Positions 21,555 to 53,310 of a DNA stretch of 64,000 nt are shown here, piece by piece. Each line of letters opens with the position of its first letter. Position 1 is the first letter of the stretch. The notes under the pieces are model-generated. The model was not told the origin of the DNA and made no database searches. It worked only from the letters and a program-made list of their open reading frames with translations. The stretch lies in NCBI RefSeq assembly GCF_000003815.2, contig NC_049992.1, positions 5,823,146 to 5,887,145 of the forward strand. Direction: 5' to 3'. The translations under genes were made by a program, and so were the position numbers. The DNA is from Branchiostoma floridae (taxonomy: Eukaryota; Chordata; Leptocardii; Amphioxiformes; Branchiostomatidae).

Positions 21555-21709
21555 ATGCAGGTTGACCTTTGACCGTAACCAGGGCAACGATTGACGTCAT
21601 CTGCAGGTGGATCTCAGTGTTGAAAGCAGCGTCCGACAGGTCACTGTGAGTCATACCTTCCTGCAGTGGACAGCGAGGAGTGCACGTTTTCGTACCTGTG
21701 GAATTGACG
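21555..21709 (+). promoter_or_regulatory. Promoter and noncoding first exon of KCNMB-like gene A: DR1 + X-box + CRE
   Basis: Contains TGACCTTTGACC (21563-21574), the inverse of a DR1 nuclear receptor site. Directly abutting it is GTAACCAGGGCAAC (21575-21588), which matches the RFX X-box rule GTNRCC-N(0-3)-RGYAAC. A full CRE palindrome TGACGTCA follows (21592-21599). Downstream, an AAAGCAGCGTCC block and an AGTCATACCT block are shared with gene C, and in part with gene B. The segment ends at a splice donor (GACG|GTAAGC at 21709/21710). The acceptor before the coding exon is at 23280/23282. Site identities follow known consensus motifs; promoter function is inferred. Confidence 0.6.
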
Positions 21710-22139
21710 GTAAGCTTTGTTTTCAGTCGATGTCGATGTTTGATTTTTTGTGTCATTGACTGATTACTTGTCGTAAGGAAAACATTCGCCCAGTGCTTTT
21801 TAAAAAAGCAGGCGTTTACTGCATAGAAGAGTTTAAGTTACAAAATAAACAGATGCGACGCTACAAACGGAAAGGTGTAGTGTTTTTCATATAATTTGGA
21901 GCTTCTAATAGAAATACGCCTTTTCATGAGGTTTGGAAATGGTTGTTAATTTTGTGGATGTCTAGTTGAATATATGTTTGTCGGGAACACAAATAACTAC
22001 TAAAGGAACCAAAATGAACGGACTCGAATCATGTACCCGTAGCAGCTCTCACTATTATGTATTTTGTACCATGTATGTAGAAATTTGTTAATATAGACTT
22101 ATAATGATAATATATAGAATTACAGACTTACAATAATAA

Positions 22140-22265
22140 TATCGGGTGTAATACTATAAGACTCACTGTATCTCTGTTATACTTTGTCTGAACCTTGCCT
22201 CTTCCCTCGTGACCTCAATGAAAAGCGACCTACAGGCCGATTTGAGCTTTCATGAATAAACAAAG
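22140..22265 (+). mobile_element. LINE 3'-end fragment (plus copy)
   Basis: Matches in inverse orientation the stretch at 22705-22800 (CCTCAATGAAAAGCG, CGATTTGAGCTTTCATGA, then AATAAACAAAG). It is the same 3' end as the neighbouring minus-strand LINE remnant, in the 5' UTR intron of gene A. Confidence 0.55.
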
Positions 22266-22699
22266 AAAGTGTCAGACAAAAGAACTACAGCTGGAAATAC
22301 ATCTTACATGAAGAAGTAAACCCCTTCCTCTTCCACTAGGCTTATTTTCTCGATCTTGAAAACACGGAACGAACGCTCTTTATTTATTCCATTACTCTAG
22401 TCAAGAATGTTTCATTATGATCTTGCTCTTGTTTGTATTTTTTGCGTTCCCCGGGATTTGGAAACCAATAGAATTAGACTTAAAACAAGAAGGCTGCTTT
22501 TACGATTAAGAGGATCTCTGGAATTCTATTCATTCTTGTTGCATCTGGATATGCATGATGAAACGCCACGCAGTGTGGAACCGACTGCGACACGTGAAAT
22601 AGGCTCACATAAAAGAATTGTTCATCCAACATGTGAATTTCATAAATTAGGCTGTTCCAAAAACAATGGAGGGGGTGGAAGAAGCTCGATTGACGGGGG

Positions 22700-23045
22700 T
22701 ATTTTTGTTTGTTTGAACCTTTATTTATTCATGAGAAGCTCAAATCGGCCTGCAGGCCGCTTTTCATTGAGGTCATGAGGGAGGTATTAAGAGTCAGATA
22801 AAATATAACAGAGAATACATATTGCATTGAATACAAACAAATCCATTAACCTATATCACTATACATATATGGTACAACACAAACAGTGGGACAAGAAGCT
22901 CAGTGTCCATAGCCCGTGTCCGTTCGTTTTGGTCATCACTTTTACTTCAAGAGTCTCTTAAAGCAGGTCAGATTTGTAGCCGTACATGTATCTGGTGGTA
23001 GGTTGTTCCAGACATTGGGTCCACGGTAGGCTATTGAGGTTCAAG
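22700..23045 (-). mobile_element. LINE 3' remnant with reverse transcriptase tail
   Basis: On the minus strand, from about 23030 downward, the frame reads RGPNVWNNLPPDTC, then NLTCFKRLLK and a stop. This is the usual closing motif of Jockey/CR1-type ORF2 proteins (WN-x-LP ... FK-x-x-L). It is followed by a 3' UTR that ends at AATAAA near 22715. Strongly 5'-truncated. Confidence 0.7.
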
Positions 23046-23296
23046 CATCTGGACTGTAACTTATTTGAGCGAAGGGTTTTGATCACTTTTGATTGGGAAC
23101 TAGGGAACGTTTAGTCAATTTAAGACTGGAACTAGGGTAGGGTGTAAACAATTTTTGGATTGGAACTAGGGTTGGAACAGAACCTGATTTTTTACCTCCG
23201 AATTTAGTTTATGGAACAGCCCATTGTGTTCCTGATTTCTCTTTTTGGACACTCTAACAAGAACGCTCTTTGCATTTACAGAAACAAACATACACA

Positions 23297-25563
23297 ATGC
23301 ATTATTATGGTGGTGGTGGTCGTTGTAACAGACGGCGACGTACGCGTGAAACGGACCCCGACCGGCGAGCTGTGATGGGTCGGAAGCACAGGTACTTCGG
23401 CCTTCTTCTTGCATCTTTCATCCTGGCTGGATGTTGTTTGGGCGCCATGATCGCATGTGGGGTCTCCATCGTCCAACCGATGGTAGAGACCAACTCTTTG
23501 GAGTTCCAGGAGACCACCTGTACAACAACCAATGCTAACTTGACTGGTAAGTGTAGGTCTACACACTCTACATTCCTTACTGTTTTAATAATAATAATAA
23601 TATGTACTGGTCTTGGGTGCAAATGTACAGTTCTTATCGAGCAAAACTGTCATCGGCACACCAAATCAGTGTGTGTCCTCATTAATGTCCTTGTACATCC
23701 CATACCACTGTGCCTTGTCCGCTGCCTGGTCCCGCAGCCATTTCAGCATATAGGGTGCCTTCTTGACATTCTGATTGTAGTACAGTTTTACATCGTCAAT
23801 CAGGCAGTCTAAAAGACCTTCGCGGGGCCTACCCAGTCTCGGTGTTAGTTTTCTTACTGAAGGCAATATTGAGTGCCTTTTGGGCAGGTGATGACTGAGG
23901 CATACGTAGGATGTGTCCAAAAAGGTGCCATCTGTGACGGTGCACTTCGTTGTGTAGTGGAGAAGTTTTGCACTGCTTGTAGAGGTTTATGTTGCTGATG
24001 TAGTTGGGGTTTTACTGTGCACTAATACGTTAGTTTAGGAACTCTTATAATGGTATATAGCCTGATCGAACCATTAAAAGTGTTATACAACAGATTACCG
24101 CACACTTATGTTAATCGCGTCAATAGAGATGATGTTTAAAAAACATACTTTCCTTAGTGTACGTTTTCTTGAGCTGTACTATGTTTTTGTTTTACTGTTT
24201 TCTGTTTTTTTTTTATTCTGGGTTTTGGGTCAAGATTAAAATAAACATATTTTACTCCTTCAATTATTCTAAAATCATCCTTTTTTGTATGTTTAGGTGA
24301 GGAGGTTGACTGCAAGTGCGGTAAGCACTGTCACTCGGAATACCCCTGCCTGCGTATCGACGTGTCGTACGCAGATAAAGACGGTACCACAAACAGTGGA
24401 GTCCTGTTCGAAACTGAAAAGAGGCTGCACAAAGGTGGAGAAAAAGACGAGGTACGCCATGAGATTTTTTTCCTAAATATTGTAAGGCATGCGGTGTTTG
24501 TCCTCACGTGACCACGTGTCAGTGACGTAAGGATTGGCCGCCATCTTGGATGTTCAAACTTTGAGGTCTTTTTTTTTTCATTTGATTAATTAAATGTAGT
24601 TATTGCAGGTACGCGATAAACAACATGAATAGGTCTTGCTCTTCTAGTTTCATCCATAAATTGCAGGTGTAACCACATATTCATGATAAATCTCTGTTTT
24701 TGTACAGTCGTACATTTTGACTTTTGAATTGATAATAGTTTTTGTGAAGCTACCATCATGGCAGCAAATTTCTTCCATTCTATTTGAGTACATATTTTTC
24801 ATCATAGATGGGTTTACCGGATATAATATAGTACGTAATACGTTACTTATAGTCACGTATTAGGACGAAGAATTGACAACATTTAAGGTACTTATAGGCA
24901 CGTATCAGGACAAGAATTGACAACAGCAATGAAGACAAAGACAAAAAAACTCTAACCCTGAAGTCGCCCGATCTTCGTCTGCAGGACTCCCAGTGTGTGG
25001 TTGCACCTTGTGACCGCAGCAGGAGAGATAACGAGGATGCAGTCTCGAGATTTCAAGCCAACTACCCTGTGGGGAGAACCTTTAAGTGCCTGTACAACCC
25101 TGACAACACACAGGTCGGTGTTAAAGGCTTTAGGTGCACTTCATACACGTTACTTCTCTTTGTTTTTGTTTTTTTTGTTGACTTAGGTCGTGGTCACATG
25201 CATGTGTAAATGGAGGGAAAGTTAAATTGTACTGTTGTTGTTTTTCTTTGCATGCAGGAAGTCCTGATAAAACGGCTGTACACGTGGAACGACATGTTCC
25301 ATTCCATGTTTTGGAGCACCCTTGGGTTCGTCATCTTCAGCGGCCTCCTCGTGTACTTCTTCTTCAAGTGTCGGAGGGCACGTAGTGAGCTGGCCACCAT
25401 GCCGATAGTGATTCCGCCACCAGGTGCAACAACAGCACAGCCCGGGGAGTTCCTGCCACCCCCATACCCAGGGGCACAGACCCCCTACCCCCAGGCGCTA
25501 CAGCCACCACCTTACCACACCATCGACTCCAAAGACGAGAAGACAGGGTTTACATTCAACTGA
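23297..25563 (+). CDS. KCNMB-like gene A: BK channel beta-subunit family protein
   Basis: Four coding exons, 23297-23546, 24297-24451, 24985-25113 and 25258-25563 (279 residues), joined by canonical GT/AG introns in phases 1, 0, 0. The family flanks the Slo1 potassium channel and tunes its calcium and voltage gating. TM1 is at about 34-60. The extracellular loop has eight cysteines (75, 89, 91, 95, 101, 139, 144, 169), including C-x-C-G-x-x-C and the hallmark YPCLRIDVS. A sequon sits at N81. TM2 is at about 194-214 after the RLYTWNDMFHSMFWS block. Spacing matches KCNMB4 best by eye. The tail is unusual: about 65 cytoplasmic residues with PPPY at 245-248 and 261-264, ending GFTFN. A second Met (residue 27) aligns with the starts of the paralogues and could be the true start. 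First of three tandem copies. Confidence 0.88.
23640..24000 (-). mobile_element. LINE fragment inside the first coding intron of KCNMB-like gene A
   Basis: The minus-strand translation contains RWHLFGHILRM, then GRPREGLLDCLIDDVKLYY and later DKAQWYGMYKDI. This is the order seen at the C terminus of many LINE reverse transcriptases (RW-x-GH-x-xRM, GRPR, W-x-x). Truncated at both ends, opposite to the host gene. Confidence 0.75.
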
Positions 25564-26660
25564 ATCTACACAATCATCTTTTTACCTGATAGTAGTTTCC
25601 TTCAATTCCCCACATTGTTTTTTTATCTAACGTTAATTGTCAGACCTTTAGATGATCTTCCTTGTCACTGAGTAGTTATGGTGGAAAGGGATTCTTCAGT
25701 GCAGATGTGCACAATTATTGTTCTTCAAGAGATACAAAACGCGTACTAGATATACTACACCAAATCTTAAGGATTTGGAAGTCAGAGTGTATTTGTAATA
25801 TTGATGCTGAGATCAGTGCCTGAAGGAGCTATAACTTAGGAAATAAGCTAAACGAAACATGTTTTTACACGCAGAATTTGTACATATACTGAGTGATTGC
25901 ATATAGCAGGAGAACCATTGTACAGAATAATCCTTTGTCACGCTGGACAATCAAACTATTAGCTAGCTTAACAAAGTGATTGCTTTTTTACCCCCATGTT
26001 GTTTTCTTTATGACCAAGGCTTTGTCAAGCTACAATTACAAAATTACAGAACATCGATATATCTTTTGATTTGAAATGGTTTGCATCTGTACATTTTTAT
26101 TTTCAAATTGCTTTGTTCACTTTCACAGATATAGAAATGTAAAGGCATTGGTCACAGTACTAGCCAGCAATATGTAAATTTATCGTACAAACATGGTACT
26201 TAGAGATATAAGTTGCTATATTACATGTAAGAATTAATGTACTTCAGCATGATATTAGATTAAATGCTATAAAGATAAGGGCCTGTGTATGATAAACGCT
26301 GTTTTTTGTGAAGCCTATGTAGAATTGATTACTAGTATATGCTGTTTTCTATTAATTGATCTAATCAGCACAGCATGTCTTTATAATGGCCAAATTAACT
26401 GTAATTTGATTTAGTGGTGATGCAATCACAAAACAGTTGAATGCATTTTGATTGAAACGCTTTTGGTTTAACACAGAACAGATGGTTTCTACAATTGAAT
26501 GTCGTGGGCTTATACTGTTAGTAGTGGTAATTATAATATACTGTATGTACATATGTTTTACATCTCAGACCCATGGTCTAATGCTAATTAATATCAATAA
26601 CTATAATTTGCACTCATTCGTTGTACTTTTATCTGGCAATGGGAAATAAAGGTTTGTTTG
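25564..26660 (+). other. 3' UTR of KCNMB-like gene A with poly(A) signal
   Basis: AT-rich and without frames of note. The first well-placed AATAAA (26645-26650) is followed by a GT-rich stretch (GGTTTGTTTGTGG) that fits a downstream element. This implies a 3' UTR of about 1.1 kb. Confidence 0.5.
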
Positions 26661-27486: not shown

Positions 27487-27559
27487 TTTTAGCAAACTGT
27501 AAGAGTCACTAAAGTGACAGTCGTCAGAAATCATTCTGATTACAAACGGACAACTGGAC

Positions 27560-27733
27560 AAGGTGACCTTGAGCACGTCGACCTCCAGCTAAGCGACCAA
27601 TAGCGCGTTGACCCCAGATAGCTCCTTTGAACAAAAGGAGACAGCGTCCCCAAGTGACGATTAGTCATCACATACTGTTCTGCAGAACGTTAACGCTAAA
27701 ACATACAGTCTTGTTGTTCCTCTGGTCACAAAG
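27560..27733 (+). promoter_or_regulatory. Probable promoter and noncoding first exon of KCNMB-like gene B
   Basis: Shares ACAGCGTCC and TGACGATTAGTCAT with the first-exon region of gene C. Like genes A and C it ends in a splice donor (AAAG|GTACGT at 27733/27734). A CCAAT motif lies at about 27597. The DR1 and X-box of genes A and C are not recognisable here. The acceptor before the coding exon is at 28845/28847. Confidence 0.5.
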
Positions 27734-28498
27734 GTACGTAGTCTTCATGTTTGCCAAACCCTTTGCACAAAACGTTCTTAGGCTCGAGATATAATAAGAA
27801 AAGGTCTATTCTATGCATACACATATATAGCATACCTGATATGTACAGGTATTGTTACTAGTGTGCGTAAGTTATGGTTCGTCAAATTTCCTTATAACGC
27901 GGAAGACTGGTATATCTGTAGACGTTGTTACATATACTAGCTAAAAGATAAAACTGTTGAACTATCTGTAGATTTAGCACGAAGAATTACGCTCGTTCGT
28001 CAGTAGTGCTTCGCTACATTTCGTGTATTCAAGAACGTTCTATGTCCTTGGTGTACCGCCCGGTCACCCCTACTATTCTCGACAAGTGTGTCGGATTCTT
28101 TATATGATACCTTGATTCTGTAGACGTTTGAATATGTAACATGGTCCAAGGGAAAACATTGCAACTTGAAGCAAAGATAATTTTGTAGAGATCTCTAAAG
28201 ACCTTTCACATGTGACCAGGTGTATTTACAGTCATCACTGACGAAGTAAATTACGCGTGACGAAGAAGCAGTGAAGTGAACACGAAACCCTAACCAGAAT
28301 TTTGAGAGAAAAGATTGTTCTCCAACGTTAAAAGGTATTAACGCTTCGGTTGTTTTCAGAAAATGAGGTACGCATAACGCTGCTTTTTCGCTCCAATAGA
28401 AACACAGTGTTATGGTATCCATTGATGTTTACGGAACCGAGGTCAGGGAACACAATACATTTGGTAACACAATCCCATGGGAGAAAGGATAAGGTAAA

Positions 28499-28718: not shown

Positions 28719-28858
28719 CTTTAGCTATAAAATGTTTTACTAAAAACAGACCCTGTGCTTTGAAGGACGGATGTCTTGACACAATCTAGTGTCTCAAGTT
28801 TCTCTAACATGACTTTCCCTTCAAAGAATACTAATTTGTTTCCTAGAAACGGTACAAG

Positions 28859-31800
28859 ATGGACGAACAACAGGCTGCAGCAGGTCGGTACAAAATGTAC
28901 AAATGTATGGTGATAGTAGCTGCACTTGTAACAGCGGGCTGTATGTCTGCCATCATTGTTTGTGGAACCAATATCGTTCAACCGATCGTGGAAACCAACT
29001 CTCTTTCGTTCAAAGAGACAACCTGTACTACAGCAAGGAGTTATCTTACCGGTAAGTGTCACTTTGGTGAGCACACTAAACGGCCTTCAGGATGTTTTAA
29101 TAATTTATGATGAATAAATGCTTAGAATTTATGTCCATACACTCTGTAACAGTAACATGCCACCCAAGGGCATGTATTGTTAAGATTATTACTCTCTTGG
29201 TTTTATTGTAAAAGCAATACAATTCAGGCAATGAATAAACAAGAGCTTTTAAAAAAAGCTGGTCTTTCGCTTACTTATATTGTGTAGGTAAAACTTTTAC
29301 CAGATGAGTTTCAGAACAGTTTCAATGGTATGAACTAGGGGTGGGTACTGGAACAGAAAATTCAGGTACAGGTACAAAGGATCAGGTGCAGGTCCGGACT
29401 TGATGGTCTGTGCAAACTTTTGAAGGGGCGATACTCAAAACAATTGTCCATTTCGCTACTAAGGAATTAGTGGAGTATCTGATTACCACTGGTGTTATAA
29501 AGTCCTATGTTCATGTGAACAACACTTGTTCTGTACGTTGACGTACAAAGTTTATTCAATTTGTTCTCGTAATTTATTGCACCAGTAAGCCCTTAAACGT
29601 ATAGATGCCTGCTGATATAATGTGTTCATTTTCTAATTGGTGCAGCATCCAGTTTACTGATTTTTGTCAGGTCTGTGTCTGTTAATAAAATTGTACTTAA
29701 TGAGTTTCAAAATGCAAATGCAGTTTCATTGTGGTATGTTGAAAGGAACGTTTCATTTCTTTTCGGAAAGCAAAATTATTGAGATTTTGATTCATTACGT
29801 CAGTGGTTATGGGCCACAAACTCACTCCATCGGGGTAGCTTGGAATCTTCTCATTTGAAATCAATTAGATAAAATATTAGTCAGTGTACATATATCAAAG
29901 AGGGATACACTTTTGTTGAAGTTTCTTCCACGAAGATCCCTTGAAATTTCGAGTAGTAAGCAATTTTCCACATGCAACCGCCTCCCAGCCCACGTCAGAT
30001 CTCTGCACAATTCTGGATTTCATAGAGGTAATTCTCCACATCGTGACTTAGGCTCTGGGTCATTTCAACTTGAGAAGGATCAGAGGACTGATCGAAAGCG
30101 TCGGTATATAAGCGCTTTATTTTGTGCACGGATATATGGTCCTAAAATTGTAACATCGTAATAACACATCAAAATCGCGACACCCCTTCCCAACATGCGA
30201 CACTCCCTTGGGACAAAATGGTGGCGCCCATGGACGCCAACGAAAACAATATACTAGTAGGTTTTGTTATCGCAGGCCTGTAATAAATTGCTATTTGTTC
30301 CAACATATGCAACTATACAAAAGTAGTTGTCTATACATGCGACGTTCCGGGCGAGCTCTCTCCGGTCACCGACCTTCCAAAATTTCCACATGGCTGGGGA
30401 GGACGCGAGACGCCGCCAGCGAGACCCCGACGGCTGTTTAATAACACCAAGGAGGTTAAAAAAGACCTCGTCAGAGAACTTGATGCTGTGCCTTTAGGAG
30501 ATTCATAAATAGAATAACTGACAAATTCAGTCGGTAACGATTTTTGTATGCAAAAAAAAAAATCAAGTTTTATTTGACTCTTTTGACAGTAGACCTCCAC
30601 AAAACTCAGTAGATACATTGTATATAGCTTTCACATCTTTCCTGTATGTACAATGCTCACAGTTCCCTACTCAAGTCAATCTATACACTGTCACCAGTCT
30701 TCACCAAACACGATTAGAATGTGCTAAGATTCAGGATGGATGCTTTTTTTCCGTTCAATGAATGTTGATCAAAGGCAGATATTTCCTCATGATAGCCATC
30801 ACTTGAGTTTACAAGTAAAAGTGAAAGANNNNNNNNNNNNNNNNNNNNNNNNNNNNNNNNNNNNNNNNNNNNNNNNNNNNNNNNNNNNNNNNNNNNNNNN
30901 NNNNNNNNNNNNNNNNNNNNNNNNNNNNNNNNNNNAGCTAGGGCGCGCAAACGACTCCCCCATCTAAGTTTGTGCTACTCAATATCACTAGTTCATGAAA
31001 GGACTTACTATACAATGGACTAGATATCCTTTACCATATGAGATGACCACAAGCTGACCAGTGTAAAAGCTACAGGTGGTAAGTTTTTTGAAAGCCCATG
31101 TTCCCAAGTTTCTGAAGGATGTATAGTATCCTGTGTGGTAACCATGTGCTACCGCCCGACAACCATCTGTTTGAGATCCTTGAGGCTGTGTTCTCTGGCG
31201 ACCTGCAGGGCGTGGTCCAAGGCATGGATCTGCACCAACAGCTTAGCTACCTGCTTAATGCTCTCTCTGTAAGGAAAGGGGATGCAAAAATGAGCGAGTT
31301 GTGGGGTAATCAAAATATGTTACAACTAGACACATGTTCGATGTAGACACAGGCTTTGTGGCACTGGAACTAACCTACTCACTGTAAAAACCGAAAACTC
31401 TCCTTGTTTTAAATATGAGGTTCAACAACCAAACCTCCAAACAACCAAACAATCAAACAAATAATGATTCTCCAGAAATTTGGACTCCAGGTCAAATAGC
31501 AAATGTAACATAGCCAGACAATATAATTACTGTTGGTCACTTCTTTTGTGGCCAAGAGCATGTTATCATTTTATTTAGTTATGAAGTTTTCATAGCTTTA
31601 GAATGCTACAACAAATACTGTGGATATCCGCCAAATAATGTTAAATTTTGGACAACACTTACGACATTTGTCAGTTTCTTAAAAACATGAAATCTGTAAA
31701 AACAGGTACAAATCAACATTTTACCCGTCATGCATATGGCGCATCTGAAGACTAAAAGCAAGGAGGTTAAAGAAGGACTAAAAGCAACGAGGTTAACCTC

Positions 31801-34800
31801 CTTGCTAAAAGTCATATTTTGCTGTATAGTTTATTGTGTCCACCCCTTACCTTGCTTTTCTCCTGACTATGTCGGGACAGCCGATGCTGTTCTTGTGTAG
31901 GTTGAAGTTTAGGAAGATTTTAGGATCTCTTTCCATTGCAACTACCATCTCTTTTTAACCTCCTTGATCATTACCACACGGCGTACGGTGAAAATGGCAC
32001 ATAATGGGTGAATGTTGGTGAAACACGGTGAAAATGTGTCACCCGGATTCGCATTGTTCCCATGTAAATATGGAAGGGTGAAAGCAAATATTGCACCTAC
32101 GTGACAAAAGAGTGAAACATGGTGAAATGACGGTTTCACCCCTAGTAAAACAAACAGCAATTACGTCATTGTGTGTTTCACGAGCTAGCGACGTGCTCGC
32201 CGCTGTCCAGTCGACGGCATTGGGACTGAAGACTGCCCGCCCAGTTCCTCAGCGCAAGCCGAGGATTTTTTTCGCATTGCCGCTAGCTCCGCAAGCCGTG
32301 GAAATATCTTTGACACTGGGATTGAAGACTGCCCGCCCAATTCCAGGATTTTTTACGCTTGCAGCTAGCTAAGACGTGCACGTGATCGCAATACGCACCT
32401 CTGATTGGTTGATCCTACAGCTGTAGGGGGTTCCCCGCTATCTACTTTCTTTGCTGCCCCATGATGCTTTGCGCCCACCCGTGTCAAAGAAAATTTCTTT
32501 TACATTTCTACGCACACGAAAAACGCTATATTCCACAATTACATTGCAATATTGCCGTGTGGTAGTGACAGATTGTGAGATGAAGATTTCCTTCAACTGC
32601 TGGCATTGTAACGTTGTTATGCTCTGAACTTGCCAAGGACGATAACGTCCTTGGAACTTGCCCAGTGTTTCTTGACCGCCTAATCGTAAGGTCCGACCTA
32701 CCCCTACCTACTGGGAGGAAAGACACCACAACGTTTGGACCCTTTCGTACGCGCCGCATTCACTAAGAGAAACGAAGTGTGACTGATATCCATCGAATAC
32801 ACGTACGCAAAGATACCTTAAATGTTTTCTCTTTACCTTGCAGATATAGTACAAGTTGAATCGCGGAGGTCTTTGGTTGAATAGACGTCTACAAATACGT
32901 TGTGCAGGGCACATTGCAGGTCCTTTATTCCTGCTAATAAGCCATGCATAAACCAAGCAGCACATTCATGGCAGGCCGATACGTATGTCATACATACTAG
33001 TACTTGCATGGCCTTTGGCAATACCATCGAATCTGCAGGGTAGAATATCTCGCTAGCACGGTATGGCATGGTCGACCCGGACGGACGGACGGACAGACAG
33101 ACGGACAGCAATCTAATATCAGTCTGATTGCCTTTCGCCGCGGAAGCGCGGCGAAAGACAAAAATATTACACGGAGAGTATACTCTGAAACCTTCTTTCG
33201 TTTAAACAACTCCTTCAGAGGGAGGGGGGTGTATCTCACTTAACTACCGCACGTTTGCATTGTCGTTGCGGGCGAGCGTATTGACAGAACGCTCATCGAA
33301 TTTCGTTGATAATAAAGCGACTTTTTACGCTTTGTGTTTTGTCTTATTTTTCAGTCACACATATTTCTACGTTTTGCATGATATTCCCATTATAAGGGGT
33401 AACCGAAATACAATGCAGGACGAAACGATGTCCCCAAACGTATACCAATACCCGGGTACCCTAGCCTCCATTGCAGACTTCGAGCGGGCTAGGTTTTTTT
33501 AGGGGGGAGGGGCGCTAGTTCGCGATTTTTAACGTAGGCTAGGTTTTATTATGTTCGGAAAGGGAGTTTGCCGAGGAAGGGAGTTTGCCCCATCGAGACA
33601 AACGCTGAAAATCCCCCCCCCCCCTAGAATACAAGCCCCGTTCGAAGTCTAAAATTGATACCCCCTTTAATCTGTTTTATTGGATTACGTAGGAGAGAAA
33701 GCTGACTGTGACTGTGGAAAGAACTGTCAGTCCGCGTACCCCTGTCTGCGTATCACCGTGTCGTACGCTGATGAGGGCGGCACCACCAATAACGGGGTCC
33801 TGTTCGACACTGAACAAAGGCTCAACAAAGACGGGCACAGAGGAGAGGTATGTCATCAGTCATGCTATGTCCTCTGCGTATTTTCAGTGTATATGTGATG
33901 ATGATGATGATAATGGTAAAAATCTTACTTTGCTTGCCACCATAGGCAAGTCACAAAAGGTACGAACTAGTATGACTACAGTAATTTGGTATGTCGTTTG
34001 GAATTCTTAAGTAAACTGTTTAGTAGTTTCATGTCGCTGATATCATCAACTGAGATATTGGCACAGGGAGGGGAACTTAACGCTATATTTCTCTGTCACC
34101 TCAGGTGTAAAAATGGGCACCTGACTTCAGTTTGTGAGGTGGTGAAAGAAGAGTGAATTTCTCCGCCTTACAAAATGGAATACCGTGCCGTACCGTACAG
34201 CTGGATAACATTACCCACAGCCCCTAAGGCATCAAAAAGGCTACTGCACTACGTCTCTCTATATGTACATGTACCAATTAGCAAACTTATCATTTATAGT
34301 TCTTCTTGATCTCCAGGACCTCCAGTGTGTGACTGCACCTTGTGACAGAAGCTGGGAAGAGAACCGGAAAGAAGTCGAGAACTTTCAAGATGAACACGCG
34401 GACGGGCAGACTTACAAGTGCCTGTACAACCCAGCTGATACCAACGTAAGCTAATCAGTGACATTGAGATGCACCATTTTGTAGGGTAACCGATGCAAAC
34501 TACAAATATACTGATGACAAATGTTCTCCACTCACCCATCAACAACTGTAAAAATAAACAAAAAAGTTGTCGAAATTGTGTTAAAAATGTCCAAAACAAT
34601 ATTTCCTACACACGAGAGTCACATATTTCTATTCCGCAGTATTTTAAAATAGAGTGGCAAAACTACCACGGAAAATGGCCCAACTATGACCTAATACATG
34701 ACTTCAATCAGAGCTAGCATCGATTTGGTGCAATGAGCCCGGATGAACCGGAAAATTCCAAAATGGCCGCCGCATCTGGAATAGGGTCAAGCCTGTGAAG

Positions 34801-35499
34801 ACTGACCACTCGATGGACTTGGTCACATTATTTAAGAGACCGCTAAATTCTATCCCAATCTCTCCAAGTTTAACGTTTACAGACAAAATAGCAGAACAGA
34901 ACGCACAAACTACAAAGAAGGTGGGATCCTTTGTCTTCCACTGTCCCAGAGAAAGAAGTCAGACCAAATAAGTTACATTTTAGTTTAGACTGTAGACTGG
35001 AGTAGTCGCTTAGACATTGTTTATCCTTGTTTGTATTTTTTTGGTCATTTTATCCTAGTATATATGACAACTGAATTTTTACTGTGATTGAATATCTAAT
35101 TCCCTACTTTGATTTCCAAAGCCCTATCATTGTGATGAAACTGGGAAAGTCAATATCAATAACCTACTGTTTTGTTATCTCATATGCATCTTACAGCAAG
35201 TCTTGCTCAAGAGGCTGTTCACATGGGACCATATGTTTCACTCCATGCTGTGGAGTAGTATCGGGTTCGTCGTTTTCGCTTGCGTCACCGTGTACCTTGC
35301 CCTTCGGTGTAAGAAAGCAGGTGAGAAGACGTCCCTTACGACAGGTGTTACAGGTGTTCAGCATGGACTACCGCCTCCTTATCCCGGAAGACAAGCCCCT
35401 TATCCTTATCCAGGGTTGCAGATGCAATCCGTACATGAGAACTCCTACCAGACACGCTATTCGACACCCTCTGACAATAAGGGATTCACATTCAACTGA
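28859..35499 (+). CDS. KCNMB-like gene B: BK channel beta-subunit family protein
   Basis: Four coding exons, 28859-29051, 33693-33847, 34317-34445 and 35197-35499 (259 residues). Intron phases (1, 0, 0) and the inner exon lengths (155, 129) equal those of gene A. TM1 is at about 13-40, and the loop has the C-x-C-G-x-x-C and YPCLRITVS hallmarks. Exon 4 encodes DLQCVTAPCDRSW and KCLYNPADTN. TM2 is at about 175-196 after RLFTWDHMFHSMLWS. The cytoplasmic tail is shorter than in A, with one PPPY (218-221), and again ends GFTFN. The first coding intron is 4.6 kb, has grown by repeats, contains a 107-base assembly gap, and hosts two exons of an opposite-strand gene. An acceptor (TTTCCTAG at 28846) 12 bases before the ATG supports a spliced 5' UTR. 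Expected location: plasma membrane, with Slo-type channels. Confidence 0.88.
30829..30935. other. Assembly gap (107 N) in the first coding intron of gene B
   Basis: Run of N. The flanks are not recognisably repetitive. Confidence 0.99.
31149..31952 (-). CDS. Two 3' exons of an unidentified minus-strand gene nested in gene B's intron
   Basis: The exon at about 31851-31951 ends at a GTAAGG donor. The next exon, 31149-31266, follows a CCTTTCCTTACAG acceptor. The phase-2 join is clean and gives 'EMVVAMERDPKIFLNFNL...', then IGCPDIVRRKARESIKQV and HALDHALQVAREHSLKDLKQ before a stop. The composition is amphipathic-helical, without low complexity, which looks like real coding sequence. I do not recognise the family. 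No convincing acceptor precedes the upstream exon: the frame hits a stop at 31955-31957, and a repeat-like AACCTCCTTG motif lies there. The 5' part may be missing, in the nearby gap, or destroyed. It could be a live nested gene or a fragment left by duplication. Confidence 0.5.
32218..32372 (+). repeat. Pair of ~70-bp direct repeats
   Basis: Both copies share a GGGA(C/T)TGAAGACTGCCCGCCCA core, then AGGATTTTT and GCTAGCT. They start at about 32218 and 32308. Meaning unknown; no coding signal. Confidence 0.7.
33474..33651. mobile_element. Small MITE with G-run/C-run ends
   Basis: The left end CAGACTTCGAGCGGGCTAGG with a G run and the right end C run followed by CCCCGTTCGAAGTCT are inverse copies, 178 bp in all. 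A second copy starts at 59412, and an isolated C-run end occurs at about 53704-53725. It lies 40 bp before exon 2 of gene B. Confidence 0.65.
34085..34255 (+). mobile_element. SINE fragment in gene B
   Basis: Body portion only (CACCTCAGGTGTAAAAATGG, then TCTCCGCC and ATACCGTGCC), matching 2190-2290 of SINE copy 1. The tRNA-like head is absent. Located 60 bp before exon 3's acceptor (34316). Confidence 0.6.
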
Positions 35500-35510
35500 A
35501 TCTGTTGATT

Positions 35511-37132: not shown

Positions 37133-37817
37133 GCATGGTAGCATTTGCCACCTAGTACTGTAAGTAATCATGATCGATTATCCAAGTTTCAATGAAGAAT
37201 GCAAAAACCGATATACATGTGACGATATAGATATCAACAACCAAAATGGAAAGTTTAGTACTAGTGACGAAAGTAATTCATGCATGTATATGGTTACAAA
37301 CCATTGAATGATTTTTATACTTAAAGCTTATAGTTCATAGTTTATAGCAAGCACATCTTCTCAATGTTACACAGTTTTTGGGTACTACCTGTGAAACAGA
37401 TCAATGCTTACATGTTCATAATTTGTTAAACTCATTAAAGACGCACGGAATGGAACTTCTCACACCTTCGTTGAATGTATAATAGGCGCAATAGGCACTA
37501 CTAAACGTGTACTGGCTCAGCATTGAATGAATAATACGACATATCAGTAAGGTAAAACAAGTAATACATCTCTTGTTCAACGATCATTAATGTTGTAAAG
37601 CCGCGAGTATGCAACTTTTTACATGTTAAGGCCAATGTCAATAAGGACAACTTTATCTACACCCTTTGTTACGACTTGTAAACACGATTATTTGTAAACC
37701 GATTGATTGCTAGATACCAAGCTGCATGCATTTGTTATTGGTAATAAAAGGCACTTGTCTTCCTTCATTCTGTCAAGGGAGCGACAAAAATCATGAGGAA
37801 GCTGGGACCTATCCTCT

Positions 37818-40592
37818 TCACACGGCTTGCATCTGCAAAATTAAATCAGAAAATGTTAACAGAACATAATGAAGATTTACACTTGTAGTGTATGTAGACG
37901 TGACTTGGCACTTTCAAATAAAAAAGGGTTGTCAGAAAGGTTTACCCCAATCTTTAACCCATTCCAATTCCTCACTGTCTAATGAACATGCATAGCTCTT
38001 TGATGTCACACACAGGAATAACAACACGAGATAAGACTTAGCTACACTTGTTAGAACAAAACATGACCGAGCCTTGAATGTGTGTCTTACCGGGTAAGAT
38101 GAGGGATTGCCAGCCGCACCCTCGTTAAGTTCCAGACGGAAGGAGTTGACGACCACGATGCTGGGGACCTGAAATGCATGAAATCATGCAAGTGAGTCGT
38201 TAACTGCAAATAGAACCCATATGAGACTGTACTGTTGGTAGCAACCTTCCTTTCGTTGCAGAAACTGAAGATCCCATACCTTTGTGAGTTTTTGTACACA
38301 TTTTTTTGACAAAATATAACACGACCATGTCCACCACACGCATTACATCCTCTTGTGTCGGGCACATGTCATTTCTGGCCTCGTTCCTGACTTTTGCCAT
38401 GTGCCAATGTTCATTCCTACCAGTTCCAGGTGGTCAATATCTAGACACAGGCAAAATCAACCTTCATATCCTATCGGTTTCCGGTTACAACTCAATCTGG
38501 GAACACTTGAACACACACCAAGGCAAACAAACAAACAGGCTATTCTTTCTTTAAGACTTACCAAGAAAATGAAAGTCACAACGAGGATGACGATGATGAA
38601 GCCTAAAATGATGGCTAAGATGACCTGTGGAAACATAATGTAGACAGATCAACATGTCAAACTGAGTAACAAACAATGGCAATGTTCGCGTAGTAAAGAG
38701 GATAGTACTAGTTTGGGTGTCACTTTTCTTTTTTGAACATTGCTTAGACTGAATTATGGGCAGTTGGTACATGATAAAAGCTATTCATAAGAGCTCGTCA
38801 TAAGAGCAAATTTACCACATGGGCCGTAATGATAGGGACATCAGGCATCTGTTTTCAAGACCGCACTGTGTTTTGTGTATCTATTTACAAGCAGATGTTT
38901 GGAGACTAAATCGCCACGTTTTCTGCCGATTCCGTTTTCTAATCAGATGAGACAGCCAGTAACGTCAAGATTTTACTCCCAACATCTGCTTGGAGATTAC
39001 TACCGTGTATCATACTCACTCCTATGACGGTTGCTGTGTACACTTCAGCAAGAACTACAGAGAACATCACCAACAAGGCGATGTCCAGTGCCAAGCAGAT
39101 GCTTGACCAGATGATCCAAGCAAGGCACGCGCAGGCATTGTTCTGTAACATTTATCACGATGAGTACAACATCGGAACTCACAACAAGAAGCACAAGAAT
39201 CAATTGCCACTCTGTTGTTAACGTTGGTCAGTGTACTTGATACTTGATACTTAATTCCCTCCATTAGCTAACATACATGATAAATACACAAGACTTAATC
39301 TTCCTGGACGTAACGTAAAAAAAGGACAAACAAAGTACGTAATACACAGAAATATAATATTTGTAATATTCACAAACTACAAATTGATATTAATGATTGT
39401 TATATACGAAACTTTTGTTTTAAAGTATGAAGACAATTTATATATTTCAACTGATTACGATGAAATAAACGTATACAAATCAGTTTTACGAAATAGTGCA
39501 AACATGTGTTAAAAGTCCAAAGGATCGACCGACGAGGGCAAGAATTAAAAGTAACTTTGGAGAAAAGTAAACATTTTGAAAGTTCTCTGTGGTTTCATGT
39601 TCGCAGTTTTCGCGGTAAATTCTTGACCACAAACAAAAACTACCGCAAAATGCTGTCTTATACCGGCCTTCCACATTGTTTCAAACGTGTATTAAAAACT
39701 ACACTTTTTATTACGTGATTACTGACCTTCACAGCACCGAAGATGAGTACGATGGAGAACACGATGGAGATGGCACAGACAGCGACGAAGAGGTAGCCGC
39801 TAATGTCTGGAAGGTAAAATGATAAACATGACCCAGATATATCTTATGGAACCCAACAACAATTAGATGTAGAATTGTACTGAAAATAATCGCCACAAAT
39901 TATCTATATTTATATGAGTAGCTGTTATGGCGGTTTCAACAGTGTAGCTAACATATTCTTGACACCAATAGTGGAAAGACAATCAGAATGTCACATAAGG
40001 AACATTTATTTTACCAGCACCACCATCAGTCACAATTGACCAAACCGCCAAGCCTAGTCCTGTCGCGGACAGGATCTGTGAAGTACAAATATCATATGCA
40101 ATTACCGTAGTACGTGCTGATGTCAAAGATTATTAACCAGTACTTGATATTGCCAATTCATACTACTCTATGTCTGTGGATACTTTTATATGGATAAATA
40201 TTCAATGACTATGTATACGTATATCATATTTTCGTGCTCGAATCATGTAGTGTTTTTTTTTTGTTATTCGGATTTTTCTTTCAAACGGATCTGTATGCAC
40301 ACATTTTGCATTAGTATTGTGCATGCTTATATTGTGCATTTTGTTGTCATTCATTGAATTAGGACATACCAACTCGGAGAAAACATAGATGCTAGTAATA
40401 CAGATTGATGAATGCTAAACGCTGGATTCGTATATTTCATAATCTTTTTCATGTGTAAACAGGTCTTCATAACCTTTGGCAATTACGTAAATGGAAAGAC
40501 AGAATTCAATGTAAATCTACCAAATCGATGATCCCAACAGCGAGTGACCCCTTTTGGAGTGAGCAACAGCAGCAGGATTGGAGCCGACACAT
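37818..40592 (-). CDS. Four-transmembrane LAPTM4/DUF7027-like membrane protein, seven exons
   Basis: Exons on the minus strand: 40521-40592, 40015-40075, 39727-39806, 39020-39142, 38562-38624, 38091-38168 and 37818-37832. All have GT/AG borders and matching phases, giving 163 residues. The N terminus MCRLQSCCCCSLQKGSLAVG has the cysteine cluster and CSL-x-x-GS motif seen in LAPTM4-like/DUF7027 proteins of endosomal or lysosomal membranes. TM1 is at about 17-38, TM2 47-70 (LFVAVCAISIVFSIVLIFGA), TM3 78-105 (WIIWSSICLALDIALLVMF) and TM4 113-133 (VILAIILGFIIVILVVTFIF). The tail NSFRLELNEGAAGNPSSYP is followed by only MQAV from the last exon, whose coding part is 15 nt with the stop. The family call is from pattern memory. 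The fold and exon model are well supported; the function is not. Its 3' end is duplicated at 46943-47790. Confidence 0.8.
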
Positions 40593-44121: not shown

Positions 44122-44125
44122 TTAC

Positions 44126-46942: not shown

Positions 46943-47790
46943 AGTGATAAGACATCACTACTTCTTGGTGATGTGTTTATTCGTGCATAAAACATTTGTC
47001 ACCGAGCAGTTGAAGTGAGAGATTTGCATAATCATCATCGATTATTCGAATTTTAATAATGAAAGCTAAAGCAAATATCCAGAACCAAATTGAAAGTTTA
47101 GTACTAGGGACCAGCATAATTCGTGCAAAAAAGCTACAAAACATTGAATGATAGTATGATTTTCATAGTACATAGTTAAGGCTTATAGTTTGTAGCAAAC
47201 AAATCTGTTCAATGGTGCACAGTTTTAGGGTCATGTTTAGCAGATTATAACAGATCGATACTACACAAGTTATTAAACTCATTTAACACGTGCGAATTGG
47301 AATTTTACTCACCTTCGTTGAATGTTGGATAGTCCCATTTATATCGTGTATACTGACGTAGCGTTGAATGAACCACGAGTAATATATGACATATCAGCAA
47401 GGTAATACATCTCTTGTTCAACGATCATCTGTAAAGACGCGAGCACGCGACTTTCTACATGTTAAGACCAATGTAAGTAAGACCAACTTTATCTACACCC
47501 TTTGATAAGACTCGTAAAACACGATTGATTGCTATACTTATACCAAGTTGCATGCATTTGTTATGTTATTGGTAATAAGAAAGACTGAAAAAGATCACAC
47601 TTGTCTTCCTTCTTTCTGCCAATGGGCAAACAAAAATCATAAGGAAGTTAGGACCTTTCCTCTTCACACGGCTTGCATCTGCAAAAATAAATCAGAAAAT
47701 GTTTACAGAACAAAAATGAGCGAAGGATTGTGACATACATTTCTATTGTAGACGAATTTGGCATTTTCAAATTAAAAAGGTTGCCAGAAA
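46943..47790 (-). pseudogene. Duplicated 3' end of the four-TM gene (terminal exon and 3' UTR only)
   Basis: Aligns along its length with 37087-37945, including the terminal exon (here 47664-47678, again encoding MQAV and stop), its acceptor, flanking intron sequence and the AATAAA. The six upstream exons are not found at higher coordinates. Retention of intron sequence shows a DNA-level duplication, not retrocopying. Presumably non-functional. Confidence 0.7.
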
Positions 47791-48107: not shown

Positions 48108-48840
48108 AATAATGTTGTTTTGACTAAGAAACAATCATGCATGCGACGTTGTTTTTCTTACATAGAATTCGATCGGTAGAAAGTCAACAGTTCCCCGTTC
48201 CATGCAGCAAAGTTAGCCTCCACCAGGCTTTCGTACGGGGGCTCTGGTAGCAAAACTCTCCTGGCTAATTATTCTCCGTATGATAGCCAGTGTTGTCAGT
48301 CTGGTATAAACTACAGCAAAGTTGGGACATTCTTAGTGAAGTCTTGAATGTGTCATTAAAATCTAGCAGTTATGTAAAGTTTGTGTGGGATTCCTACCTA
48401 ATCGACGTTCGGTTCCATCATTTCGGTTCCACGTGAAAGAATTTGTTACTCCTGTAGACTACATGCATGGCATGTCGACATGGTTCATAGATATTCATTT
48501 TTCTCTCTTAACAGTAACGCTCCAACGAAATACAGACAACAATATCCCCATGAATATGCACCGATGTCTGGTAGCGTTTGCCATAATTATGATATTAAGT
48601 GGGATCATCATCGCCAAACCGATCGCGGAAAGGAGGTCTCCTTCAATGTATCATGATGTCATTACATATCACGGGAATCATCACCATCACTCTTTACAAC
48701 ATTGCGAAGGTCATCAGCGTTGTCACTTTCATGACCAAGTGAAGCATACACCTCGCCCTTCGGTGTAAGAAAGCAGGTCCCTCACGACAGGTGCATCAGG
48801 TGTTCAGCATGGACACGTTCTACCGTCTACCTGTCCTAGA
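48108..48840 (+). pseudogene. KCNMB-like pseudogene: first and last coding exons only
   Basis: 48108-48200 matches the 5' intron of gene C (53748-53870). A TTTTCTCTCTTAACAG acceptor (to 48514) matches gene C's. It is followed by MNMHRCLVAFAIIMILSGII and AKPIAERRS, clearly a TM1 exon. After about 48643 the sequence passes, without exons 2 and 3, into a segment matching gene B's last exon (GCCCTTCGGTGTAAGAAAGC, then CAGGTGTTCAGCATGGAC). The TM2 coding part is degraded, and the frame does not continue to the PPxY tail. A remnant of a fourth array member that lost its middle, next to the duplicated four-TM 3' end. Confidence 0.75.
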
Positions 48841-48903
48841 TAACTAGCCTCACATCAAAATCACTGCAAATGCAATGCCAACGTCCACATCAGAATAGAA
48901 TTA

Positions 48904-50540
48904 ATTCCAGTTGTGGCGGCCATGTTGGATTTCCGGGGTCATCCGAGGTCATGGCACCAGAACGAGACTGCAGGTGGTACCAGCTGGGCATTCTACTATA
49001 TAGGCTGTATTGCAGACATAAGTATGCCATCTTCGGGAGTGCATTTCACCCCTCTAAGGTTAAAAACTGCACAATATATGCCTGTTTTCTATAGAAAATA
49101 TTTTTTGGGACATTTGAATTTGATTTTGGTCATATTTTTTAAATGAATTTTTCACATTTTTTAATGGGTGACCTGAGAACAATTAGTGTCAGTGTTTATA
49201 TCATCCATGAGTGCTTTGTATTGGTAGCTGTAGTATATGTATATAGTAGGTTTACTATTGGGATTAAACCCTACAAATGCATAAAATATGGGGATGACAT
49301 CTTTGCGAATAGAAATTTAGAAGACATTTGGCAGTTGTTCTGATAATTTATTGATGCCAAGATCCGTTCTGCAAACTATGCTCTATGGGAATATCATGCC
49401 GGGTGTGCTCCTTTACTTTCTTCCCAATTCATGTTTTTTATTGTTTTATTCTAGTTTAAACAACATAACCCTACACAACAAACCCCGCATTTTGGGTCCA
49501 TAAAATTGTGGGATGAAATGTAGCAGATTTTTTTCTGTTAGGGATTTTTCAATGCCAATGTGGAGAAAAACGTAAATTTTATCGTCAGTGGAAGAGGAAT
49601 TGTTGCCTGAGTGTAGACATAGTAGACTAGACATAGCATATCACTTTGTCCCTTGTAACATTTTACATTTGTAGGGTTTATCCCACTTGAAGAGCTACAG
49701 GGGTAAATTGGTGATAGAACTTAGTAATACATAGTTTTATGAACAGATCTTCGCAGCATCTGTGAATATTCTGTCACATTTCCACCCACACTGATCTGAA
49801 ACTGGCATGAAGCCCACTTTTAGAGTAAAGTGAGTGGCGACTCTAACCTGAGTATCGTAGTTGGTTACCGAGGCTGTCATACTCACCCCTCTGGTTTGTG
49901 AGGGATGGGTATGGGAGCCCCAATAATCTACCTAGGATGACACTCAGGCTACAATCCCTCCTCCACTGGCACTTATAATCAAAGTTATGTTTTTTTTTCC
50001 ACCTTGGCATTGAAGAATTGCCAAAAACAACAGTAAACAATCTGCTACATTTCATCCCACAATGTTATGCAACATGTGGACATTTTTGTTACGGGGTATG
50101 TTGTTTAAACTAAAATAAAACAATAAAAACACTGTCAGAACAGCAAAATGTCTTCTAAATTTCTACTCAAAGGTCTGTCATTCCGATATTTCCATGTTTT
50201 TGTAGGGTTTAATCACAGTTACCGATATACAGGGCACATGGAGGATATAAACACTGACATTAGTTGTTCTCAGGTCACCCGTCAAAAAATGTGAAATATT
50301 AATAAAAAATATCACCAAAATCAAGTTCAAATGTCCAAAACAATATTTTCTATAGATAACAGGCATATATTGCGCAGTTGTTAACCTTAGAGGGGTGAAA
50401 TCCACTCCCGAAGATGGCATACTTATGTCTGCAATACAGCCTATATAGTAGAACGCCCAGCTGGCACCACCTCCAGTCTCGTTCTGGTGCCATGACCCCG
50501 GATGACCCCAGAAATCCAACATGGTCGCCACAACTGGAAT
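48904..50540. mobile_element. Long fold-back element, ATTCCAGTTGTGGCG ends
   Basis: The left arm starts ATTCCAGTTGTGGCGGCCAT and the right arm ends with its inverse at 50540. Inversion continues with few mismatches for about 390 bp (to about 49290 on the left and 50150 on the right) and resumes farther in (49435-49530 against 50035-50130). The centre is unrelated. The arms encode matching but non-functional frames. No clear target duplication was seen. Size 1,637 bp. Confidence 0.8.
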
Positions 50541-50711
50541 GTAACTCTATTAAATGAATGAATAAGGACCTTGATTGTACATTTTTCCCAACCGAGCAAA
50601 GTACAGGTCACTAGAAGACAACCATATATATAAGAGTATCACAGATCTAGTATAACACAGAAGTTCTTTTAAGACCCCCTACGTCACACGCTCAGGCAAA
50701 AAGGATTCATT

Positions 50712-51527
50712 ACTTTTTAGATGATTTGATCGATGATTTGGACCAACTGGCAGAAGCCCTCACGGTCTACGATGAGGAGGCCAAGAAGCTTGGTCTCAGC
50801 ATCAATTGGAGCAAGACAGAGCTCATGCACATCGGAGACGGCCCGGACCCTGAGCCCCTCATCTTCAATCAGTGCATCGTGAACTTCGTCTCTTCATTCA
50901 AGTACCTTGGCTCAATAATCTCCAAGACAGGTGACCTGAAACCCGAGGTCAACCAACGACGCGCCCAGGCCTCAGCTGTCCTACAGTCCCTATGGAAACC
51001 ACTCTGGCGACATCGTCATATCTCCCTGCAGACCAAACAACGAGTCTACAACTCCTCGGTTATTTCAGTTCTCCTGTACGGCTCGGAAACCTGGGCACTG
51101 AACAACACTCTGGCAGCCCGGCTCGACGGATTCGACTCTAGAGCTCTGAGGAGGATCACTGGCACCCGTTGGCACGAGCACGTGCGCAACAGTGAACTCA
51201 GGGAGCTGACCGGACAACCTCCCGCCTCCTCCCTTGCAGCCATGAGAAGGGTTCGATGGTACGGGCACGTCCTCCGGCTCCCCCCAGAGCACCCCACCAG
51301 AGCCCTGCTCGAGTTCAACCCAAAGCAGGCAGGATGGCGTCGCCCACGGGGGAAGCCCCGCACCCGCTGGATGGACGTGGTGTCCCGAGATCTGCGCACC
51401 ATTAACATCACCCCCCACCAGGCGCAGCTTGCAGCGACAAACAGAGGATGGTGGAGGTCCCTAGTGAATTCAGTCGGCTCTACGCACCACGTGCAAGAGG
51501 ACGAGTGAGTGAGTGAACTTTTTAGAT
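50712..51527 (+). mobile_element. Young 5'-truncated LINE with target-site duplication
   Basis: A perfect 11-bp duplication ACTTTTTAGAT flanks the insert (50712-50722 and 51517-51527). The body keeps an open frame of about 260 codons to the stop at 51508. It encodes the thumb and C-terminal part of a reverse transcriptase (INWSKTELMHIG, YLGSIISKTGD, VISVLLYGSETWAL, RVRWYGHVLRL, GKPRTRWMDVV). The catalytic box is cut off upstream. The element ends in tandem GAGT units. An intact frame and exact duplication point to a recent insertion. High GC compared with its surroundings. Confidence 0.9.
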
Positions 51528-53140
51528 AGAAACGTCGTGACATTAACCTGGAATCCAGTCTACCGTGGATTGGACGTAAGGCGTAGGCAGCCTATTTTAT
51601 TTCCCGTAACTCGTAGGGAAAACCATCTTATCTACGTAAATCGTAGCGAGGCGACCAAATTTAACGTATTTGCCTTTCTTGATACGTAGGGGATTCTTCT
51701 GAATTCAGCGTAAATCGTTGTCGGGACACCCCATGCAGACCCTCATATATGAAATAGACGTTTGACTCCAAAACCACATACAAATACATTGCGACTGAGC
51801 CCTGTAAGAGACATAGGAAACTTATTCAGAGTGATGCGCTATAAGCTGTTGTTGATACCCTGTGAGGTATTAATAACAACTTATCCGAAATATCCAATTG
51901 TAAGTAGGGAGTCTCAGTGTTGTTAATGATTGTACAGAGTCCCAATCTTGTATTCATGACTCGAAAACACATGTGTACAGCACAATTTAACCACATTGGA
52001 CCTGGGGATGTACAAGAATTTTTTTTTATTATTTACAATATCGATAGTTTGAAGTGTGTTCATAGTATTACTCTATATCTTTAACTCTATAATATTAATT
52101 TGGTTTGCTACTGTTTGTAGTGTAGAATTACCGTACATGCATTGAACGTACAGATGATGATTGTCTTAATCCTCTAACATAATTTCGTGCACTTGTAATT
52201 AGTCTGTCACAAAAGTTTCAATGTGTTGCGATCATATCTTAAAAGTAAACCATTGAAATAAATGTCTTATATCTTACAAATAGAGAAATATTGTGGTTGT
52301 CATTGTTGGAATTTGCAACATATCTCTTTTATATTCAACACAACTCTATTTTATTTAGCATTATGTAACTAAATAACGTTAACATTCAGCATTTTCGTGC
52401 GGAATATTTCATACTCAAGAACTTTGCACTTAAACTCTTCAGAAATTTTCGATTGTGTGGTATACTTTCACAACTATTACATGCATAGGATATCAAGATT
52501 TTGATTTGCTTGATTTGTTTTGCCATTGCTACAATGCATTCTACATTTACCGAAGTAGGCGATACCAAAATAACTGGCAAAATTAGAGCTTGGACCATAC
52601 GATATACGCCATTTTTTTTATCAACATGGCAAAGTTTTATCATTGATAGATTTCATGTAATAGTTACCAAGCTATGTAATATCGGAAGCACTCATCATTA
52701 CAAACAATAGACACCAGAACGTTTTCTAGAGCGTTGACCTTCAGTGCTTGTCACCCTACAACACGTTGACATCAGATCACATGTCGGTGACGATATACAA
52801 CATGGCTACAAGAATATAGAGATGTTTTTACTTGAGCCAGGTAGAAATTGTACATCTGTGTTCTTTCAACTATTTTTCCAGTGTGTACGTTTCACTTATA
52901 ATATGGCAAAATACAGAGTCTGGTAGATTTGGAAAATCTACACGACGAATATTTGGCATGATAAAATATGATAAGAACGTACCATTACAAGAAATATTTA
53001 AACCAAATAGACGGCAGAACAGTTATAATCAACGTTAGTCCTTGCTTTCAGCTACTCACTAAAATAACTTGATTATCCCAATCGTTGAAAACACATTCTA
53101 GCTTCCAAGGACATTTATGTAACGTAAAGCTACCCGACGA
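51528..53140. other. Upstream flank of KCNMB-like gene C; no gene seen
   Basis: AT-rich, no exon recognised. Confidence 0.4.
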
Positions 53141-53144
53141 CTTA

Positions 53145-53310
53145 TTGAGTCTGACCTTTGACCGTAACCAGGGCAACAGGTGTCGTCATCACTTGAGGAG
53201 GGGCGTGCATAAAGAAAGCAGCGTCCACAACCTGACGATTAGTCATACCTGTCTGAGGGACAGAACAGCAAACTCCGCACCTTTCCTTGCTTATCCTTGT
53301 GACCCAAGAA
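53145..53310 (+). promoter_or_regulatory. Promoter and noncoding first exon of KCNMB-like gene C: DR1 + X-box
   Basis: TGACCTTTGACC (53152-53163) abuts GTAACCAGGGCAAC (53164-53177). Both are identical to the pair upstream of gene A. Then come AAAGCAGCGTCC, TGACGATTAGTCATACCT and a splice donor (AGAA|GTAAGT at 53310/53311). The CRE of gene A is only half kept (TCGTCAT). The acceptor for the coding exon is at 54300. Confidence 0.6.

Follow-up and report, generated by a model that had tools for sequence, protein, structure and literature searches.

Genes A and C of a tandem KCNMB-like array in amphioxus are preceded by an identical stretch of touching nuclear-receptor and RFX sites, probably a shared promoter element

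X-boxes, the sites of RFX factors, are put to more than one use, endocrine control among them. In the W/SXY element of major histocompatibility complex class II (MHC-II) promoters, RFX occupies the X box, CREB the X2 box and NF-Y the Y box, with RFX and CREB in fixed order and spacing (PMC7866136), while the X-box promoters of ciliary genes described for C. elegans carry the RFX consensus close upstream of the gene (PMC2873420). Enhancer I of hepatitis B virus, in the description given by PMC7077322, brings RFX1/EF-C, receptors of the HNF4, RXR, PPAR and COUP-TF types and CREB together on one compact element. A context model of functional human HNF4-alpha sites picked out an HNF4-RFX1(EF-C) matrix pair at a distance of 8-100 base pairs (bp), and also a CREB matrix (PMC2374721). 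Here we describe a 64,000-nucleotide stretch of the Branchiostoma floridae genome (contig NC_049992.1; hereafter the window) that holds three KCNMB-like genes, A, B and C, in one tandem array; their products resemble the beta subunits that assist the BK potassium channel. Genes A and C are preceded by the same 26 bases (the 26-mer), in which a nuclear-receptor site of the DR1 type, that is, two half-sites separated by one base, touches an RFX X-box. We consider it probable that the 26-mer is a composite site of the proximal promoter (about −93 to −65) that came from a common ancestor, that purifying selection has preserved in A and C, and that B lacks. The promoter stretch as a whole, with its touching receptor and RFX sites near a possible cAMP-response site, is probably a real control element.

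All 26 bases are identical at 21563-21588, before gene A, and at 53152-53177, before gene C, a direct match that bears out the identity first noticed in an earlier, sequence-only reading of this DNA. When up to three mismatches are allowed, the window contains two matches against 0.00 expected, and none of 100 shuffles gave two. The genome that holds the window (513,431,437 bases in 431 contigs) contains two exact copies of the 26-mer, those of A and C, and none of the reversed control, in a search that skips very common words and leaves near-copies outside the count. The two copies lie on the same strand, 31.6 kilobases (kb) apart. A dispersed repeat, the origin that the sequence-only reading had itself held up against its claim, is thus ruled out for exact copies, both of which stand before KCNMB-like genes; near-copies fall outside this statement.

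In gene A, the DR1-type site (CGGTCAAAGGTCA on the minus strand) occupies 21563-21575, or −90 to −78, and the X-box (GTAACCAGGGCAAC, plus strand) occupies 21575-21588, or −78 to −65; in gene C, the DR1-type site lies at 53152-53164 (minus strand, −93 to −81) and the same GTAACCAGGGCAAC at 53164-53177 (plus strand, −81 to −68). Positions are counted from the A of TCATACC, the predicted start. Both X-boxes fit the RFX1 consensus GTNRCC(N0-3)RGYAAC, as printed in PMC7077322, exactly, and the earlier claim of an exact X-box is confirmed. Both DR1 sites consist of two half-sites with a one-base spacer (CGGTCA A AGGTCA) and abut the X-box as that reading had it, the match being 12/13 to RGGTCANRGGTCA, with one half-site that starts with C. 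The last plus-strand base of the DR1 is the first base of the X-box, so the two would be bound either cooperatively or in mutual exclusion. We favour cooperation, in which RFX would bind the X-box as a dimer, a receptor of the HNF4, COUP-TF or RXR type would bind the DR1 likewise, and the two would form one unit.

The matches to the individual motifs carry different weight. Strict X-boxes with a two-base spacer give four strand-hits at three places in the window against 0.19 expected; the third place, a perfect palindrome at 59994-60007, sits inside a coding-looking open frame of the minus strand, and a strict X-box match alone therefore proves little. That frame (59867-60169, minus strand) resembles a membrane-anchor exon, with the palindromic X-box-like string in frame. 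At up to two mismatches TGACCTTTGACC is found five times in the window against 5.34 expected, which is no excess, and the two exact occurrences are those of A and C only. In 317,608 unmasked bases, made up of the window and 26 loci (L010-L035), DR1/X-box pairs within 60 bp, at no more than one mismatch each, occur only as the A and C copies; the same sample has 14 other DR1 sites at up to one mismatch and three other strict X-box places.

The 26-mer is embedded in a longer conserved promoter. Local alignment of the A and C promoters extends over about 128 columns with a score of 68 (best of 500 dinucleotide shuffles, 29), and outside the 26-mer 69/93 aligned bases are identical. The statement of the sequence-only reading that the surrounding sequence has diverged thus holds for the outer flanks but not for these columns; the conserved core promoter, the site resembling a cAMP-response element (CRE) and the homologous core of gene B had been missed. 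Shared blocks are CGTCAT right behind the X-box, GAAAGCAGCGTCC and AGTCATACCT. Three bases past the X-box, gene A carries the CRE octamer TGACGTCA (21592-21599, plus strand, −61 to −54) and gene C the CRE-like TGTCGTCA (53181-53188, plus strand), one mismatch from TGACGTCA, which is complete in A only. The core block CAGCGTCC follows at 21627-21634 in A and 53219-53226 in C (plus strand, −26 to −19 in both), and then an initiator-like (Inr-like) AGTCATACC at 21649-21657 and 53241-53249 (plus strand), with predicted starts at 21653 and 53245. These predicted starts draw on conservation and on the Inr consensus. From these starts, noncoding first exons of 57 bases in A (21653-21709, plus strand) and 66 bases in C (53245-53310, plus strand) are predicted, ending at the donors GTAAGC at 21710 and GTAAGT at 53311; both copies of the 26-mer have a good splice donor downstream, followed 1.0-1.6 kb further on by an acceptor. 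These donors and acceptors support the noncoding promoter or first-exon setting proposed before, the starts themselves being predicted. The order of the elements is fixed in A and C and their distances nearly so; the start sites, the binding of the factors, their cooperation and any cell type in which they would act are what we infer. On a promoter that has no clear TATA box, a CREB/ATF protein would bind just downstream of the receptor-RFX unit.

The functional unit could instead be the X-box together with the CRE, an RFX-CREB pair as in MHC-II, or it could be a TCF/LEF site inside CCTTTGA, the DR1 then being incidental. The CRE-like site stands three bases past the X-box in both A and C, and the fixed order and spacing of RFX and CREB in MHC-II promoters is a precedent for such a pair. 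However, it is the CRE that differs, TGACGTCA in A and TGTCGTCA in C, while all 13 bases of the DR1 are unchanged. The octamer TGACGTCA is over-represented in the window, where it occurs five times, at 4672, 5569, 6742, 14014 and 21592, while the expected number is 1.05; for this reason it is weak evidence by itself. Of the five, four lie upstream of gene A. We regard a unit without the DR1 as unlikely.

Whether the composite site owes its identity to selection turns on the shape of the identical run, which starts and stops at the edges of the two motifs. If the rest of the promoter (69/93) sets the rate, a run of at least 26 in 119 columns has a chance of 0.011; at the identity of fourfold sites, 58% (21/36), the chance is 2.8e-5. 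These statistics favour selection over gene conversion without settling the question, and selection is what we infer. Conversion would mean that the 26 bases were carried from one gene to the other in a recent short tract, in which case their identity would say nothing about function. Two copies on one strand of a tandem array, 31.6 kb apart, are suitably placed for it, a cautious run probability of 0.011-0.056 leaves a non-selective cause that is not absurd, and gene C is possibly degenerate. Yet such a tract would need to end exactly at both motif edges, and the flanking blocks (CGTCAT, GAAAGCAGCGTCC, AGTCATACCT) are patchy, like constrained promoters, and form no even tract; we think conversion improbable. 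Still less probable, to the point that we give it hardly any credence, is that the motifs coincide by chance or belong to a mobile element. Calculation does predict a few DR1/X-box pairs per genome, and the third strict X-box of the window falls in a coding-looking open frame, but only two exact 26-mers exist in the genome and a conserved core promoter, partly present in B, surrounds them both.

Several points weigh against an ancestral composite site kept by selection. The run probability is only 0.011 on the cautious rate and rises to 0.056 when the rate is taken from all 119 columns; the comparison covers two paralogues of one species. The DR1/X-box pair is not rare in itself, because, from the densities in the 317,608 sampled bases, chance is calculated to produce about 8 to 9 pairs no more than 20 bp apart in the whole genome (513 Mb), and about 0.2 at any single fixed offset; the evidence for the pair is its conservation in two gene copies and not its mere occurrence. 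Five other loci with the Pfam CaKB domain (30 kb each) have no convincing copy of the promoter. Gene C may be broken, which would weaken selection as the reason for the identity: its last exon, encoding the second membrane helix, was recognised neither in 56001-64000 nor in the 30 kb beyond. Downstream of its coding exons, 60393-61346 consists of 954 N. The exon could lie inside this stretch, or gene C could be broken. Against cooperation in particular stands the account in PMC7077322, where RFX1 acts on enhancer I as an inhibitor of hepatitis B virus; two titles cited there nevertheless name RFX1 as a transactivator at the same enhancer. Because the numbers are small and conversion is possible, we go no further than to call the ancestral, selected composite site probable.

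The promoter of gene B belongs to the same family as those of A and C. Its core, at 27634-27668 (plus strand; CAGCGTCC ... GATTAGTCAT), is homologous to that of C and less clearly to that of A: the C promoter matches the 3.3-kb upstream region of B with a score of 39, reached in none of 1000 shuffles, while the A promoter as query misses the B core on its own (score 22, with 200 of 1000 shuffles as high). The spacing from CAGCGTCC to AGTCAT is near that of A and C, CAGCGTCC lies at −25 in B and −26 in A and C, and the Inr-like motif, donor and acceptor line up across the genes; the first-exon donor of B is at 27734, and the next exons of A, B and C open with clear acceptors 12-15 bases ahead of the ATG. 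At the place where A and C carry them, the B promoter has neither an X-box nor a DR1. Its upstream part (27561-27613, plus strand) has the receptor half-sites TGACCTTGA and TTGACCCC as well as a CCAAT box at −70 to −66, single motifs that may be due to chance. The earlier suggestion that B lost or never had the pair agrees with this absence, but B is no stranger to the promoter family. An ancestral promoter would have been passed on by tandem duplication, with the receptor-RFX composite kept in A and C, while B would have kept the core promoter and parted with the composite, probably through loss or rewiring. In a tree of six rows, two of them long, A, B and C group apart from three other CaKB loci at 99/98, but the tree gives no firm branching order among the three and therefore cannot decide between loss in B and gain in A and C; we read the absence as a probable loss.

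The assignment of the three genes to one family, made before from the sequence alone, is supported by Pfam CaKB, with 66.8 bits (2.6e-18) for A, 59.4 (5.1e-16) for B and 46.3 (5e-12, from a partial protein) for C, against a curated cut-off of 25.1. All three lie on the plus strand. In gene A, the region that runs from the second exon through the last spans 23282-25563, with protein-matched stretches at 23375-23554, 24296-24454, 24979-25116 and 25258-25560, the exon ends being approximate; GGTAAGTGT, which closes the first of these stretches, probably contains a splice donor. For gene B the corresponding region is 28847-35499, with its first coding exon starting at 28847, and the identified coding exons of gene C lie within 54301-56127. 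In the aligned parts the proteins are 49-56% identical, and two membrane helices around a cysteine-rich loop can be read by eye in the translations of A and B. The gene A protein gave no phmmer match to solved chains at E 0.01.

A tblastn search of 30 kb on each side of the array, about 4 kb of it N, returned no further KCNMB gene below E 0.027. As candidates for further copies of the promoter, the other CaKB loci and the contig from 50 kb upstream to 60 kb downstream were rejected (best score 36, next 32); the match with score 36 covers 36 columns in the 3' region of the contig-2 gene and was judged to be chance, a judgement made without shuffles of those regions. Within the array, a broken fourth KCNMB-like copy lies at 48550-48837 on the plus strand. 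It consists of a shortened exon-1 piece and, within about 100 bases, exon-4 pieces in two frames; the bases in between yielded neither exon 2 nor exon 3. A promoter before this copy was likewise rejected, with 58 of 100 shuffles as high for the A promoter, 87 of 100 for B and 1 of 100 for C, the match of C being a 20-column stretch outside the common blocks. Direct repeats at 37244-37869 and 47087-47715, about 9.84 kb apart and 76-88% alike with one 27-base stretch identical, follow gene B and precede the broken copy, and may mark the duplication that made it.

As to where the promoters would act, a joint input from RFX and an HNF4-type receptor would suit ciliated or endocrine cells of the gut, with sensory or neural cells also possible. 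Control in ciliated or sensory cells, as the sequence-only reading suggested, is one possibility among others; X-boxes are used by further RFX factors too, in MHC-II promoters for example (PMC7866136). RFX6 and HNF4 come together with cAMP signalling in the endocrine cells of vertebrates, and BK channels tune excitable cells. Both facts count for an endocrine rather than a ciliary role, in which an RFX6-type factor, HNF4 and CREB would drive these subunits in gut endocrine cells and so tune excitability and secretion. KCNMB is not known to be a structural gene of cilia. No paper on amphioxus rfx6 in such a role was found, as judged by titles, and the sequence cannot separate the endocrine version from the ciliated-gut one because all the sequence evidence is common to both; we hold the endocrine role to be rather unlikely. 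A more elaborate scheme, somewhat more doubtful still, is an AND gate in which an HNF4-type receptor as the signal of gut identity, RFX as that of ciliation, and cAMP would together switch on particular BK beta subunits, with B rewired to another receptor half-site and CCAAT. Published data on amphioxus supply part of the setting: PMC6292497 reports that hepatic regulatory elements are enriched for Hnf4a sites, counts RFX1-2-4-7 motifs with those that score high in modules conserved between amphioxus and zebrafish, and describes a conserved module made up of organs that have ciliated cells; its text as consulted names no module for the RFX motifs and does not tie them to that of the ciliated organs. 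PMC12768270, which compares the adult guts of bilaterians, B. floridae among them, describes hnf4 as the mark of an intestinal or digestive module and assigns cilia-related genes to an anterior one. In titles and the beginnings of abstracts, no literature on amphioxus KCNMB or on a fused DR1-X-box was found, which is not proof of absence.

Other features of the window lie around the array. Exons at 13121-15933 on the minus strand resemble, by eye, galactose-3-O-sulfotransferase and stand head to head with gene A; a bidirectional promoter shared with gene A was considered and set aside, the two being about 5.7 kb apart. Short repeats of the same sort at 17848-18246 and 19338-19668, in opposite orientation, were seen as repetitive open frames. 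On the plus strand, 1.6 kb before the promoter of gene C, a 285-codon open frame at 50651-51508 looks by eye like a reverse-transcriptase remnant, and a minus-strand open frame at 57554-58210 has collagen-like repeats and, by eye, a C-type-lectin-like end. No RNA family reached its gathering score in the window.

The finding overturns nothing established. If it is true, the array makes it possible to test on a small scale how ion-channel subunit genes in tandem come to have a control element in common or to lose it. Of its three paralogous promoters two have the composite and the third does not, and the lineage is one for which genome-wide start-site and open-chromatin data have been published (PMC6292497). 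It would also provide a defined site that forces RFX and a nuclear receptor into contact, where cooperation and competition can be asked about.

Among the known systems, ciliary X-box promoters share with A and C the RFX consensus close upstream of the gene, but the account in PMC2873420, in the portions available to us, mentions no abutting DR1. The human HNF4-alpha/EF-C pair is spaced 8-100 bp apart (PMC2374721), whereas in A and C the two sites overlap by one base. The order of RFX followed by a close CREB-type site, characteristic of W/SXY (PMC7866136), is found in both genes, with a full CRE in A and one mismatch in C. A and C nevertheless differ from W/SXY in the DR1 upstream of the X-box, in the genes concerned and in lacking a Y box (neither CCAAT nor ATTGG occurs between −130 and +100), and for want of a Y box the element was rejected as an MHC-II module. 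Hepatitis B virus enhancer I resembles the A and C promoters in the factor classes gathered on one compact element; it is viral, acts in liver cells and has RFX1 described as inhibitory (PMC7077322), so that the likeness is one of factor classes and no homology is claimed. Should the AND-gate reading prove true, the array would exemplify how regulation divides between genes once they have been duplicated in tandem, and would offer, in a chordate, a counterpart built of like parts to two classic composites, MHC-II X-X2 and hepatitis B virus enhancer I.

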